Below are positions 54,078-58,350 of a DNA stretch of 64,000 nucleotides, one piece after another. Both the position numbers and the translations under genes were made by a program. The DNA comes from Cochlodiniinecator piscidefendens (GTDB lineage: Bacteria; Pseudomonadota; Alphaproteobacteria; Rhodobacterales; Rhodobacteraceae). Below the pieces are notes generated by a model. The model was given only the letters and a program-made list of their open reading frames with translations. It did no database searches and was not told where the DNA came from. The first letter of the stretch is position 1; every line of letters starts with the position of its first letter. The stretch covers positions 62,001 through 126,000 of the forward strand of contig NZ_JAAOIE010000003.1 of the NCBI RefSeq assembly GCF_011326755.1, written 5' to 3'.

Positions 54078-54127
54078 TGCATAAATCGTATGCATAAAAA
54101 CCATACGAAAACCATACGATTTATGCA
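54078..54127. repeat. Long palindrome between convergent genes
   Basis: Perfect 15-base inverted repeat TGCATAAATCGTATG (54078-54092) / CATACGATTTATGCA (54113-54127) around 20 bases that hold another CCATACG; a further CATAC overlaps the right end. It lies between the PhyH-like gene and the convergent ArsR gene. It has no G+C-rich stem, so it is not a typical terminator. Related in sequence to the CATACG repeats at 21493-21575. Confidence 0.6.
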
Positions 54128-54141
54128 TACAAACCATATGC

Positions 54142-54465
54142 CTATTTTTCGAGTTCTTGCTCTAAAAACGCTTCAAATGCGTCTAGGTTCACGGCCTCGA
54201 ATTGTCCAAAGCCTTGCATCCAAATTGACGCATCTTTCAGGGCATCTGGTTCCAGTTTACACCACTTAACGCGTCCGCGTTTTTCTTGGGAAATAAGCCC
54301 GGATTTGGTTAATATGACCAGATGCTTTGAAATGGCGGCCAAAGACATTTCAAATGGTTCTGCAACGTCAGTAACAGCCATATCGTCCTCTAACAGCATC
54401 GAAAGAATTTCGCGGCGGGTCGCATCAGATAGTGCGGCAAATATGGTGTCGAGTTTGTTTTGCAT
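54142..54465 (-). CDS. ArsR-family transcriptional regulator
   Basis: 107-residue winged-helix repressor: LDTIFAALSDATRREILSML, then FEMSLAAISKHLVILTKSGL as recognition helix and GRVKWCKLEPDALKDAS. No metal-binding motif (one Cys only). Divergent from a DMT transporter gene, with an 18-base palindrome in the gap; a second copy of that palindrome lies behind the transporter. It is distinct from the ArsR at 3715, whose operator sequence differs. Confidence 0.9.
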   Translation of the reverse strand: MQNKLDTIFAALSDATRREILSMLLEDDMAVTDVAEPFEMSLAAISKHLVILTKSGLISQEKRGRVKWCKLEPDALKDASIWMQGFGQFEAVNLDAFEAFLEQELEK

Positions 54466-54496
54466 GGCGTTTTATCTGCAAGGCATTGCTGAATTA

Positions 54497-54514
54497 GTCA
54501 ACCAGATGGTTGAC
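54497..54514. promoter_or_regulatory. ArsR operator candidate, copy 1
   Basis: Perfect dyad GTCAACCA / TGGTTGAC with a 2-base centre (GA), 32 bases before the ArsR start codon and 95 before the transporter ATG. The core TCAACCA-N2-TGGTTGA is repeated at 55507-55522. Confidence 0.65.
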
Positions 54515-54609
54515 TTTCCGTTGTGGCGGGCGTTTGTCTTTGCGTGCAGAGTAGGGGTGTTATTCGCCAATATCTTTGCTGTGTTTTCGCTCAAAATTGG
54601 ATTGATCAA

Positions 54610-55506
54610 ATGACAGCGCGCTACTGGTTTCTTATCTTTATTCTTGGTATTGGCTGGGGTTCTTCCTTTATTTTCAATGAAATACTTCTGCGCGAAGTCG
54701 GGCCGTTCACGATGTCACTGGGGCGTACGGGGCTCGGGGCATTGGGATGTTGGGTGTATGCGTTGGCAGTTGGTAAATCCGTTTTTCAGTCGCCCCTTAT
54801 TATTCTTGGAATGGTTCTGTTGGGAACGATTAACTACGCGATCCCATTTGCAGTTTATCCCGTGAGTCAGCAGTACCTCGCAGGAGGCGTCGCAGGCATC
54901 ATCAATGCGATGACACCGGTGATGGTCGTCATCGTGTCGCAATTTTGGCCCGGCGGCGAAAAGGCGACTTTCTTAAAAACACTTGGGATTCTAGCCGGGT
55001 TTGCCGGGATTGCCGTATTAACGCTGCCGTCGATAGAGCAAGGCGCACAATCGGAGATCTGGGCGATCCTCATCGCACTCATCGCTCCGGTTTGTTACGG
55101 TATCGCCGTCAACATGGCGCGGCGATACAAAGATCTCGACCCGGTCATTTTGGCAATGTGGTCATTGACTGGCGGGGCATTGGTCATAGGCCCTGTTGCG
55201 TTCACGCTGGAAGGCCTGCCGCATATCACACAGGCCGAAACGTGGTTTTCGTTTGCCATTATAGGATTTGTTTTAACGTCAGCTTCTTTCATGGTCATGT
55301 TCTGGTTATTGCCTAGAGTTGGGGCGACGGCTACGTCCACCGTTACCTTTATCGCGCCAGTCTCTTCTATTTGGCTTGGCTCCCTCGTGTTGGGGGAGCA
55401 GGTAGAAAACAGTCACCTTATAGGGATGGCAATCATGTTCGTTGGGCTTCTGTTGATCGATGGTCGGTTGTTTGGGCGCAAGAAAGCCACGACAATAAAA
55501 GTATGA
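54610..55506 (+). CDS. DMT-superfamily (EamA) transporter
   Basis: 298 residues from ATG 54610 (MTARYWFLIFILGIGWGSSF); the frame is open further upstream but runs through the operator region. Ten hydrophobic segments in two EamA repeats, with GWGSSFIFNEILLREVGPFT near the start, YLAGGVAGIINAMTPVMVVI in the middle and APVSSIWLGSLVLGEQVENS near the end. Probably an exporter of small metabolites under control of the divergent ArsR repressor; the inducer may be its substrate. Substrate unknown. Confidence 0.9.
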   Translation: MTARYWFLIFILGIGWGSSFIFNEILLREVGPFTMSLGRTGLGALGCWVYALAVGKSVFQSPLIILGMVLLGTINYAIPFAVYPVSQQYLAGGVAGIINAMTPVMVVIVSQFWPGGEKATFLKTLGILAGFAGIAVLTLPSIEQGAQSEIWAILIALIAPVCYGIAVNMARRYKDLDPVILAMWSLTGGALVIGPVAFTLEGLPHITQAETWFSFAIIGFVLTSASFMVMFWLLPRVGATATSTVTFIAPVSSIWLGSLVLGEQVENSHLIGMAIMFVGLLLIDGRLFGRKKATTIKV

Positions 55507-55522
55507 TCAACCAAATGGTTGA
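55507..55522. promoter_or_regulatory. ArsR operator candidate, copy 2
   Basis: Dyad TCAACCA / TGGTTGA with a 2-base centre (AA), starting immediately after the stop codon of the transporter gene. Same core as the site at 54497-54514. Confidence 0.5.
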
Positions 55523-55613
55523 ATATGACAGGCCACGGCGACGGGCGAGTGGTTGTAAATTTATTCATTTTAAATCAGCCGCTTACAGGTTGTTTGGCTA
55601 TCTTGGGAATCTC

Positions 55614-55642
55614 TTGACTCTGAGAGGCCTTCTGCCTAGGTT
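55614..55642 (+). promoter_or_regulatory. Candidate sigma-70 promoter of the atp operon
   Basis: TTGACT (55614-55619), a 17-base spacer and TAGGTT (55637-55642), ending about 30 bases before the atpI start. Spacing is optimal and the -35 is good, while the -10 is only a partial match. Confidence 0.4.
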
Positions 55643-55672: not shown

Positions 55673-55999
55673 ATGTCTGACAACCCCGATCCTAACCGGC
55701 TCAAGGCGCTGGATGAACGGATTGGTGCGTTGAAAAAGGCTCAGGAACCGGAACCGCGCATAGATGAACATTATTCAACGGCCAATATGGCCTGGCGGAT
55801 GGTGATAGAACTTGTAGTCGGTCTCGCGATTGGCTTTGGCATTGGATACGGGCTGGATCTGCTTTTTGGGACCACGCCGATATTGATGGTGCTGTTTATA
55901 TTGCTGGGTTTTGCAGCAGGGGTGAAGACAATGCTTCGCACCGCTCGGGAAATCCAAGAGGAACAAGTGGCGAAAGCCGCAAAAGAGACGAAAGACTAG
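55673..55999 (+). CDS. atpI: ATP synthase protein I
   Basis: 108-residue membrane protein that assists assembly of the c-ring and Mg2+ uptake. From ATG 55673 (AAGGGTGG upstream) it has a hydrophilic N-terminus (NPDPNRLKALDERIGALKKA) and two hydrophobic segments (VIELVVGLAIGFGIGYGLDL, ILMVLFILLGFAAGVKTML), then a charged tail. This AtpI/AtpZ-like type precedes atpB in many alphaproteobacteria. A GTG 12 bases earlier (55661) is an alternative start. Confidence 0.9.
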   Translation: MSDNPDPNRLKALDERIGALKKAQEPEPRIDEHYSTANMAWRMVIELVVGLAIGFGIGYGLDLLFGTTPILMVLFILLGFAAGVKTMLRTAREIQEEQVAKAAKETKD

Positions 56000-56032
56000 A
56001 TGCACAGCATCTGGCGAAGGAGCGAAATACTG

Positions 56033-56836
56033 ATGGGTAAGATTGCATTAATTCTGGCACTGGTCATCGTTGCAGCCGCAACACTTTTCTTGCAGCCAGA
56101 GCATGCTGGGTTGGCCATTCACCCGATGGATCAGTTTGAAATTTCGCCGCTGTTCGGTCACGGCGATATCAGCTGGTACACACCTACCAATGTAACGGCT
56201 TGGATGGCGATTGCGGTTCTTTGTATTATCTTGCTCTTGGTTGTTGGAACGCGTCGCCGCGCGATTATCCCAACACGCACACAGTCAATCGCTGAAAGCG
56301 CGTATGGCTTCGTTTACAAAATGGTCGAAGATGTTGCAGGCAAAGACGCTGTTGGCTTTTTCCCATATATCATGACTTTGTTCATGTTCATCGTATTCGC
56401 AAACTTCCTTGGCTTGCTGCCATTTAGCTTTACAACAACGTCACATATCGCGGTCACTGCAATCCTTGCGATGCTGGTTTTCCTGACTGTTACGATTGTG
56501 GGCTTTGTTAAGAACGGAACTGCATTCCTTGGTTTGTTCTGGGTGTCATCAGCGCCGCTTGCGCTGCGCCCGGTTCTCGCAATCATTGAGCTTATTTCAT
56601 ACTTCGTACGTCCAGTTAGCCACTCTATCCGTCTTGCGGGTAACGTCATGGCCGGACACGCAGTTATCAAAGTGTTCGCCGGCTTTGCAGGTGCCTTGGG
56701 CATGTTCGCTTTCTTGCCGATCTTCGCGATCACTGCGGTTTACGCACTCGAAGTTCTTGTGGCCTTCATTCAGGCTTACGTCTTTACCATCCTGACTTGT
56801 GTTTATCTAAAAGATGCTCTGCATCCTTCACACTAA
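56033..56836 (+). CDS. atpB: F0F1 ATP synthase subunit a
   Basis: Membrane stator subunit forming the proton half-channels. 267 residues from ATG 56033, which has AAGGAG ten bases upstream; the ATG at 56000 gives 11 more residues without a signal. Visible are [20 protein letters not shown], the essential-Arg helix [20 protein letters not shown] and the C-terminal [20 protein letters not shown]. Second gene of the F0 operon. Confidence 0.96.
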
Positions 56837-56895: not shown

Positions 56896-57132
56896 ATGGA
56901 AGGCAATATCGCAGAAATGGGTCAATTCATCGGTGCAGGTTTAGCAGCTATCGGTTCAGGTGCTGCAGCTATCGGTGTAGGCCACGTTGCTGGTAACTTC
57001 TTGGCAGGTGCATTGCGCAACCCGTCAGCTGCTGCTGCACAAACTGCTACGCTCTTCATCGGCATCGCGTTTGCTGAAGCTTTGGGGATCTTCTCGTTCC
57101 TCGTCGCTTTGCTTTTGATGTTCGCCGTTTAA
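56896..57132 (+). CDS. atpE: F0F1 ATP synthase subunit c
   Basis: 78-residue c-ring hairpin: helix 1 ([20 protein letters not shown]), polar loop with RNPSA, helix 2 with the proton-carrying Glu61 ([11 protein letters not shown]). AAGGAGA precedes the ATG. The conserved Glu in a proton-type context lacks the sodium-binding Gln/Ser pattern, so an H+ motor is expected. Confidence 0.97.
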
Positions 57133-57209: not shown

Positions 57210-57791
57210 ATGGCTAACGACACGCATAGTGCCGACACAGAGACCGCACATGGTGCGGTAGACGCTGCACACGGTGCAGCAGGTCATGCAGAAGCTGCAT
57301 CGGCAGGTATGCCGCAGCTCGAGTTTGCGACCTTTCCAAACCAGATTTTCTGGTTGATGGTCACGCTTGTCGTGATCTACCTCGTCCTATCACGCGTTGC
57401 TTTGCCCCGTATTGCGGCAGTTTTGGCAGAGCGTCAGGGCACCATTGCAAACGATCTTGCCCAAGCTGAAGAGCTGAAGCAAAAAGCGGTTGCTGCAGAA
57501 GAGGCGTACAATCAGGCTCTTGCTGATGCACGTACAGAAGCACACCGGATTGTTGCTGAAACCAAAGCTGAAATTCAGGCTGATCTTGATGCGGAAATCG
57601 CAAAAGCTGATGCTGAGATAGCCGCAAAAGCAGCTGAATCAGAAAAAGCAATTGCAGAAATTCGCGCGAGTGCTGTCGAAAGCGTTCATGAAGTAGCCAA
57701 ATCAACTGCGGCTGAGATTGTTGGATCCCTCGGGATGTCTGGCGATGCAAAAGCAATTGAAGCAGCTGTTGCTGAACGTGTGAAAGGATAA
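57210..57791 (+). CDS. F0F1 ATP synthase subunit b'
   Basis: 193-residue peripheral-stalk subunit. A long Ala/His-rich N-terminal region (about 35 residues) precedes the membrane anchor ([20 protein letters not shown]), then a long charged helix ([20 protein letters not shown]) typical of b-type subunits. As in other photosynthetic-type and alphaproteobacterial operons two b genes follow atpE; this first one, often named atpF' or atpG, is the b' type. GGAGGAAG precedes the ATG. One base separates it from the next gene. Confidence 0.93.
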
Positions 57792-57792
57792 G

Positions 57793-58350
57793 ATGATGAA
57801 AAAACTATCTATCCTTTTTACGTTGACTGCTAGTCCTGCGCTGGCCGCATCTGGCCCGTTCTTTTCGCTCTCTAACACGAACCTAGTGGTTCTGGTTGCA
57901 TTTATCTTGTTTGTTGCGGTGTTGATGCATTTCAACGTTCCAAGCATGATCGGTGGAGTGTTGGATAAACGTGCTGAAGGCATTAAATCTGACTTAGACG
58001 AAGCCCGTGCACTGCGTGAAGAAGCGCAAACAATTTTGGCATCTTACGAGCGTAAGCAAGAAGAAGTTAAAGAGCAGGCTGACCGTATCGTTGAACATGC
58101 GAAAGCTGAAGCTGCTGCCGCCGCTGTAGCCGCTAAAGAAGAGCTGAAAGGCACTATTGCCCGCCGCCTTCAAGCTGCTGTGGATCAAATCGCATCTGCA
58201 GAAGTTTCCGCTGTTAAAGAAGTACGCGATACAGCGATTACCGTTGCAGTTGCCGCTGCAAGTGATGTCATCGCTAAGCAAATGACAGCGACCGAAGGCA
58301 ATAAGCTGATCGACGCGGCCATCGCTGAGGTTGATACAAAGCTACACTAA
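57793..58350 (+). CDS. atpF: F0F1 ATP synthase subunit b
   Basis: 185 residues: a short N-terminal hydrophobic lead ([20 protein letters not shown]), which looks like a cleavable signal peptide, the membrane helix ([20 protein letters not shown]) and a long stalk helix ([20 protein letters not shown]). It starts one base after b' and ends the F0 operon at a strong terminator. The F1 genes (atpHAGDC) are not in the window, as usual in alphaproteobacteria. Confidence 0.95.

Follow-up and report, generated by a model that had tools for sequence, protein, structure and literature searches.

The window is a 64,000-nucleotide stretch of the genome of Cochlodiniinecator piscidefendens, and the locus of interest within it is built around a divergent regulator gene and the F0 genes of the ATP synthase. 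On the minus strand, arsR (54142..54465) encodes a 107-aa ArsR/SmtB-type winged-helix protein (HTH_5), identified from Pfam and NCBIfam models, orthologs, and residue conservation, with a convergent PhyH-family gene (Pfam) behind it. On the plus strand, a transporter gene of the EamA family (DMT; Pfam; 54610..55506, start codon assumed) lies between arsR and atpI, the first gene of the F0 operon (55673..55999; Pfam ATPase_gene1). Downstream of atpI on the same strand are atpB (subunit a; 56000..56836, start codon uncertain; Pfam ATP-synt_A on 56030-56836), atpE (subunit c; 56896..57132), and two consecutive genes for b/b'-type subunits (57210..57791, Pfam ATP-synt_B; 57793..58350, Pfam). A GntR-type gene follows the second of these on the opposite strand. 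Where the PhyH-family gene and arsR converge, a perfect 15-bp inverted repeat (TGCATAAATCGTATG / CATACGATTTATGCA) with a 20-nt loop, overlapping an 11-bp repeat, spans 54078-54127 between their 3' ends and is possibly a two-way terminator.

Two palindromes, 1009 bp apart, flank the transporter gene. The core of operator 1, on the arsR side, is TCAACCAGATGGTTGA at 54498-54513, one base shorter at each end than the initial annotation had it, and 54497-54514 hold the longer palindrome GTCAACCAGATGGTTGAC, of the form GTCAACC-N4-GGTTGAC with TTGAC on both strands. Operator 2, on the atpI side, is TCAACCAAATGGTTGA (TCAACC-AAAT-GGTTGA, then ATATG) at 55507-55522 and, as annotated, sits directly behind the stop codon of the transporter, beginning at the base after its TGA. 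By eye, a putative arsR promoter can be drawn on the minus strand, with a proposed -35 box TTGACT inside operator 1 (54496..54501) and a proposed -10 box AGATAA just before the arsR ATG (54472-54477). The atp promoter on the plus strand has a -35 box TTGACT (55614..55619) that lies 91 bp past the end of operator 2 and a -10 box TAGGTT (55637..55642) after a 17-bp spacer. Starting 41 bp before that -35 box is an IHF-like site, AATCAGCCGCTTA (55573..55585, plus strand), with eight of nine consensus positions.

In the 3,698,613 bases (21 contigs) of the genome, the only exact matches to the 14-base palindrome are operators 1 and 2, which are also its two matches in the window. The genome search for more copies, which had been proposed as a check, found none with one mismatch and 36 with two, and the backwards-read control pattern has 14 places with at most two mismatches. 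Among relatives the A and T beside the center vary and the core is TCAACC-N4-GGTTGA. This core has two copies in the 3.70-Mb genome and is present in 128 of 149 family genomes, versus 13 of 149 for the reversed control pattern, so the occurrence of the pair is well above chance and the earlier claim that two exact matches are unlikely to be coincidental is borne out.

Copies of the site away from atp offer little indication of a wider regulon. Further regulon members were discarded as a candidate because the core occurs only twice in the window's genome, and direct control by ArsR seems limited to this locus there, given that there is no other exact core. In relatives, nine off-locus copies (L143, L144, L277-L283) share no common gene by eye among the matches listed; all fall within open stretches that exceed 200 codons and are possibly spurious in GC-rich DNA. 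A palindrome that recurs away from atp among the matches listed, TCAACCTCAAGGTTGA or its complement (G063, G092, G044, G042, G133, G028, G121, and G132), may be coding sequence or the site of a different regulator; in G044 (L280, 863) it is inside a 266-codon open stretch. The near-match TCAACCATCTTGTAGA recurs within the coding sequence of atpB (L018, L021, L055, and others) and is taken as coding conservation.

The protein scores above the curated cut-offs of the ArsR family models (PF01022, 40.9 bits, cut-off 22; NF033788, 76.5 bits, cut-off 55). After the general ArsR/SmtB model, its closest named subfamily is SdpR (NF033789), where its 69.8 bits fall below the curated cut-off of 100. A CxC-type metal-binding motif was sought in the protein and is absent, as the protein has one Cys in total, and metal sensing was dropped as a candidate function. 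Many members of the ArsR/SmtB family have no metal sites, so the missing motif bears on metal sensing and not on the fold. The single Cys, C69 in the motif RVKWCKL, is kept in 76 of 76 orthologs and in 94 of 94 family rows covering the residue; because it is invariant, a thiol-based signal sensed by C69 is a reasonable guess. In a sample of 190 genomes of the class, a match of at least 78% identity is found in three, the protein's own genome included and all of the same family, and the other 19 genomes with ArsR matches reach at most 47% identity.

Conservation identifies operator 2 as the principal site. A named genome collection was scanned with the ArsR protein and the best 80 of 583 related loci were used; atpI is found in 76 of these, with arsR at most 3.4 kb away, and in all 76 a site with three or fewer mismatches lies between the two genes. 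An even sample of 149 genera of the family Rhodobacteraceae has an ArsR match at E<=1e-25 in 136, of which 132 have arsR divergent to atpI within 6 kb; two genomes with a weaker or broken-up arsR at the locus (G022 and G093) bring the total to 134. A core site was sought with starts 110-270 bp before the atpI start and is present in 134 of 134 loci with zero to three mismatches (112 exact), its end 106-241 bp before the atpI start, though these counts are not independent events because the genera are related. The 110 loci with arsR-atpI gaps of up to 320 bp divide into 94, 12, 3, and 1 with zero, one, two, and three core mismatches, and the 24 loci with gaps of 327-4735 bp into 18, 4, and 2 with zero, one, and two. 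The poorest sites have three mismatches (G127) or two (G056, G067, G097, G086, and G069); in windows resampled from a Markov model, two or fewer mismatches occur in 0.6% of 6700.

Far fewer loci have a second, separate site on the arsR side with no more than one mismatch. Such a site occurs in five of the 24 longer-gap loci (the window, G140, G120, G119, and G096) and, window included, in three of the 19 whose gap of at least 914 bp has room for a gene. With the atpI-side site in every locus and the arsR-side site in so few, operator 2 would be the conserved site and operator 1 the extra one. The initial reading, in which the arsR-side site was primary and the atpI-side site an addition, is reversed in relatives, and the non-conservation of the second site that was to count against it is not what the family displays. 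G140 (L181), G120 (L188), G119 (L182), and G096 (L251) have good sites at both arsR and atpI across gaps of 0.4-4.7 kb, and from these layouts a second operator may have arisen several times. In G102 (C199 650-2250, L225), the arsR-atpI gap resembles a repeat array, with long frames on both strands and recurring units.

These counts bear on the mechanism first suggested for the pair, that the transporter gene is looped out by ArsR sitting on the two sites together, or that site 2 supplies an additional regulated promoter directed at atpI. The window does have two exact sites, and four other genomes have two good ones, but two-site layouts are restricted to 5 of 24 longer-gap loci, so a two-operator loop is not conserved. 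Regarding the promoter, the proposal divides: conservation speaks for control of atp from the second site, and a promoter overlapping that site is not recognizable by eye, the conserved atp promoter starting 91 bp further on. A second atp promoter at the operator was therefore not retained as a candidate, and we rate the two-site mechanism as the most improbable reading considered here.

Genes in the gap vary. An EamA gene is found by tblastn in the arsR-atpI gap of 7 of 134 family loci, all 7 among the 19 whose gap could hold a gene; other gaps have LysR-type, thioredoxin-like, or lipid genes, judged by eye from translations. Among named relatives, Tritonibacter mobilis (L085) and Phaeobacter italicus (L093) carry an EamA gene there, and Ruegeria (Silicibacter) lacuscaerulensis ITI-1157 (L076) has a short gap. 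Because gap contents differ between loci, the transporter looks like cargo, and it was rejected as a functional partner. We infer that the transporter was inserted in the lineage of the window rather than lost elsewhere, because the majority arrangement lacks an intervening gene.

Presence of the site follows presence of the regulator. Ten ArsR-less genomes are testable (G004, G008, G029, G054, G059, G083, G090, G101, G122, and G017, the last so counted because a 48% relative on another contig is all it has), and none has the site before atpI, their best matches having four or five mismatches as in resampled sequence; the set is small, may not be phylogenetically independent, and includes incomplete genomes (G008, 82%; G122, 76%). 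G021 was left out at atpI because of a contig end, and G033 and G146 because of no atpI match. By this comparison, the palindromes behave as the operators of the neighboring ArsR, as had been proposed. ArsR binding is a prediction, and this leaves some room for a different protein at the site, or for the site acting as an RNA hairpin or terminator. Site 2 has a terminator-like pattern on the minus strand, and the region has nine such patterns versus 2.5 in shuffles. But a different protein is at odds with the absence of the site from all ten ArsR-less genomes, and a hairpin with conserved core bases that have no conserved T-run after them, with the location of several of the nine patterns inside arsR or atpI, and with the lack of any Rfam match in the region up to E 0.1. 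A terminator at site 2, for which there is a weak minus-strand pattern only, was set aside, and we hold both of these explanations to be very improbable.

When arsR and atpI are apart, the site stays with atpI. In G035, arsR is 2.86 Mb from atpI, and the exact core is at atpI while the best match at arsR has six mismatches; in G109, arsR is on another contig, with two mismatches at atpI and four at arsR. The base after GGTTGA, which completes the TTGAC of the arsR -35 box (consensus TTGACg in short-gap loci), is C in 83 of the 110 loci with short gaps and at all five separate arsR-side sites. At the atpI-side site of loci with longer gaps it is C in only 4 of 24, and in 2 of the 19 with the longest gaps. 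The ATAT flank is kept in 60 of 110 short-gap and 16 of 24 longer-gap loci. Thus, where arsR is no longer beside the site, the arsR promoter element appears mostly decayed and the operator kept, and by this comparison serving arsR is not the site's whole role. The opposing explanation is pure autoregulation, in which the palindrome is the operator of arsR only and lies beside atpI simply as a consequence of the divergent gene order. It draws on the single site that serves the short gap in 110 of 134 loci, overlapping the arsR -35 box in most. However, all 24 longer gaps keep the site at atpI and 19 of them lack a separate arsR-side site, the distant arsR of G035 has not taken the site with it, the core outlasts the arsR -35 base in longer-gap loci, and the spacing to the atp promoter is phased. 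We consider autoregulation alone improbable.

The atp promoter is itself highly conserved. TTGAC lies between the operator and atpI in 134 of 134 loci, at a median of 58 bp from the start codon. Among 135 measured promoters, the -35 box is TTGACT in 121 and TTGACA in 12, the spacer is 17 bp in 129, and the third base of the -10 box is G in 86%. Between the end of the operator and the -35 box, 211 distances (76 from named and 135 from family loci, with some genomes in both) span 59-169 bp and are usually 90-126 bp. They cluster at 59, 68-69, 81, 87-91, 98-103, 108-113, 120-126, and 134-136 bp, with single values at 144, 153, 159, 160, and 169 bp; none of the 211 is at 92-97, 104-107, 114-119, or 127-133 bp.

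Changes in this distance, inferred by parsimony on midpoint-rooted trees and compared in size with random sizes, lie close to multiples of 11 bp. The family tree yields 51 changes of at least 3 bp with a mean cos of 0.53 at 11 bp (0 of 20,000 resamplings as high) and 0.27 at 10.5 bp (p=0.003), an event count that is inflated because the tree rests on short fragments. A better-resolved tree of 76 loci and four proteins has 12 changes (13, 13, 13, 14, 21, 22, 24, 31, 34, 34, 44, and 46 bp), with 0.57 at 11 bp (p=0.001) and 0.17 at 10.5 bp, the latter without significance under a uniform null (p=0.20) and with p=0.04 under a geometric one. Repeats fitted to lac loops in vivo are 11.08-11.60 bp per turn in Table 1 of PMC1762422, and the portion of PMC8501960 used here gives about 11 bp for lac-type loops. 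The control distance from the -35 box to the ATG has 0.12 at 11 bp on the family tree (30 changes) and -0.57 on the better tree (5 changes). Restricting the analysis to 109 short-gap loci, operator to -35 has 0.52 at 11 bp (43 changes, 0 of 10,000 resamplings as high). The controls there at 11 bp are 0.12 for operator to ATG (54 changes), 0.15 for -35 to ATG (29 changes, p=0.12), and 0.18 for operator to arsR start (32 changes, p=0.06), the last reaching 0.30 at 11.3 bp (p=0.003). Of the controls, two distances are not significantly phased at 10.5-11 bp, and one is weakly phased at 11.3 bp. The site apparently retains a single helical face, also in loci where other genes have come in between.

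The interval between operator and promoter often contains an IHF-like sequence. The IHF consensus is WATCAANNNNTTR, and at least eight of its nine positions are matched in 116 of the 211 measurements versus 9.9 expected from resampled sequence; as controls, the opposite strand gives 21 and the reversed pattern 11. Matches of at least seven positions begin chiefly at -42/-41 relative to the -35 box, and a further cluster lies at -31/-30, closer by one turn. Distances from operator to IHF-like site are 50-52, 59-61, 68-72, 81-85, or 92-95 bp in all but 9 of 189, a spacing that follows partly from the phasing of the operator to -35. The window's genome encodes IhfA and IhfB, with both subunits above curated cut-offs. 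Several ArsR-less genomes keep a similar IHF-like sequence at the same place, so IHF need not serve ArsR and may act at the atp promoter with or without it. Together, helical phasing and the IHF-like site support a loop between operator 2 and the atp promoter.

From these patterns, we think it fairly likely that an ArsR-type regulator acts on the F0 ATP synthase operon via an IHF-bent, helically phased complex. That an ArsR-type protein controls the genes of the F0 membrane motor in Rhodobacteraceae from a site kept before them is probable. The palindrome would be the operator of the neighboring ArsR and its conserved target atpI, atpB, atpE, and the two b-type genes, with the usual family layout having one operator between divergent arsR and atpI. 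Bound ArsR would cover the -35 box of its own promoter, leading to autorepression, and would also be placed upstream of the atp -35 box on the preferred helical face, where bending of the intervening DNA by IHF could let it contact RNA polymerase in a looped complex. In the lineage of the window, the transporter gene would have come to separate arsR from the formerly shared operator; operator 2 would have stayed with atpI, and operator 1 would control arsR and perhaps the transporter.

ArsR would set atp transcription and would more likely activate a weak TTGACT-17-TAG promoter than repress it. Activation is somewhat favored because the atp promoter is conserved in a suboptimal form, versus ArsR-less genomes in which the best-scoring promoter has TTGACA in 4 of 10 and a -10 box beginning with TAT in 4 of 10, a small sample. 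Going by the excerpted part of PMC8407463, the final T of the -10 box is missing from more than 60% of sigma-70 promoters in alphaproteobacteria, so a weak promoter is not diagnostic of activation, and the weak -10 box was dropped as proof. Alternatively, ArsR represses atp through the loop, and a signal that releases it raises atp and arsR expression together; this overlaps our preferred explanation, in which the sign is not fixed. Most ArsR-family proteins act as repressors, the overlap of the operator with the -35 box of arsR in short-gap loci fits repression there, and phasing suits repression loops as well as activation. Yet the atp promoter is kept off consensus (TTGACT in 121 of 135) while the few ArsR-less genomes are nearer to it, and 59-169 bp separate the atp -35 box from the operator upstream. 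We view repression of atp as unlikely, though a serious contender. A more specific version of the looped complex, in which ArsR is an activator of F0 in nearly all Rhodobacteraceae and C69 serves as its sensor of a redox, sulfur, or energy signal, is much more speculative and is offered tentatively.

To our knowledge, how bacteria set the levels of ATP synthase is poorly understood, and few dedicated regulators have been described. Among the matches listed in full-text searches of open PubMed Central papers, with subscription papers mostly uncovered, no title or abstract opening presents an ArsR-type regulator of an atp operon. Comparative evidence points to such a dedicated atp regulator beside atpI in 134 of 149 sampled genera. 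What began as two sites would be a larger structure, an F0 operon control element that is conserved, helically phased, and served by a dedicated ArsR-type regulator. Its spacing pattern amounts to a natural spacer-mutant experiment in which operator and promoter have apparently been kept on one helix face through many indels. If the reading of ArsR as an activator that senses through C69 is true, synthesis of the proton channel would be linked to a redox, sulfur, or energy signal.

The predicted system combines features of several known ones. Like ArsR/SmtB repressors, it has a small winged-helix protein, a divergent gene, and a predicted palindromic site overlapping the regulator's own -35 box. 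Unlike them, it has a protein with one Cys and no CxC-type metal site, a distal and helically phased operator, and, as its conserved predicted target, the F0 ATP synthase operon instead of a resistance or efflux gene. SdpR-type autorepressors (NF033789) are its closest named subfamily, but the score is below the cut-off; SdpI is the partner in SdpR-type systems, whereas the gene behind arsR is a convergent PhyH-family gene and thus no SdpI-like partner. The narG promoter of E. coli is an example of an IHF-assisted looped promoter. With promoters of this kind and with lac-type loops, as far as covered in the parts of PMC1762422 and PMC8501960 used, the locus shares a distal operator, an IHF-type bend in between, and spacing modulo ∼11 bp; it differs in that the distal protein is of the ArsR type, the target is atp, and the evidence comes from evolution rather than experiment. 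The F0F1 operon of C. glutamicum, which the portion of PMC3917460 consulted places under SigH and links to pH, likewise has specific transcriptional control of an ATP synthase operon, but there it is exerted by an alternative sigma factor, in an actinobacterium, through an unrelated mechanism.
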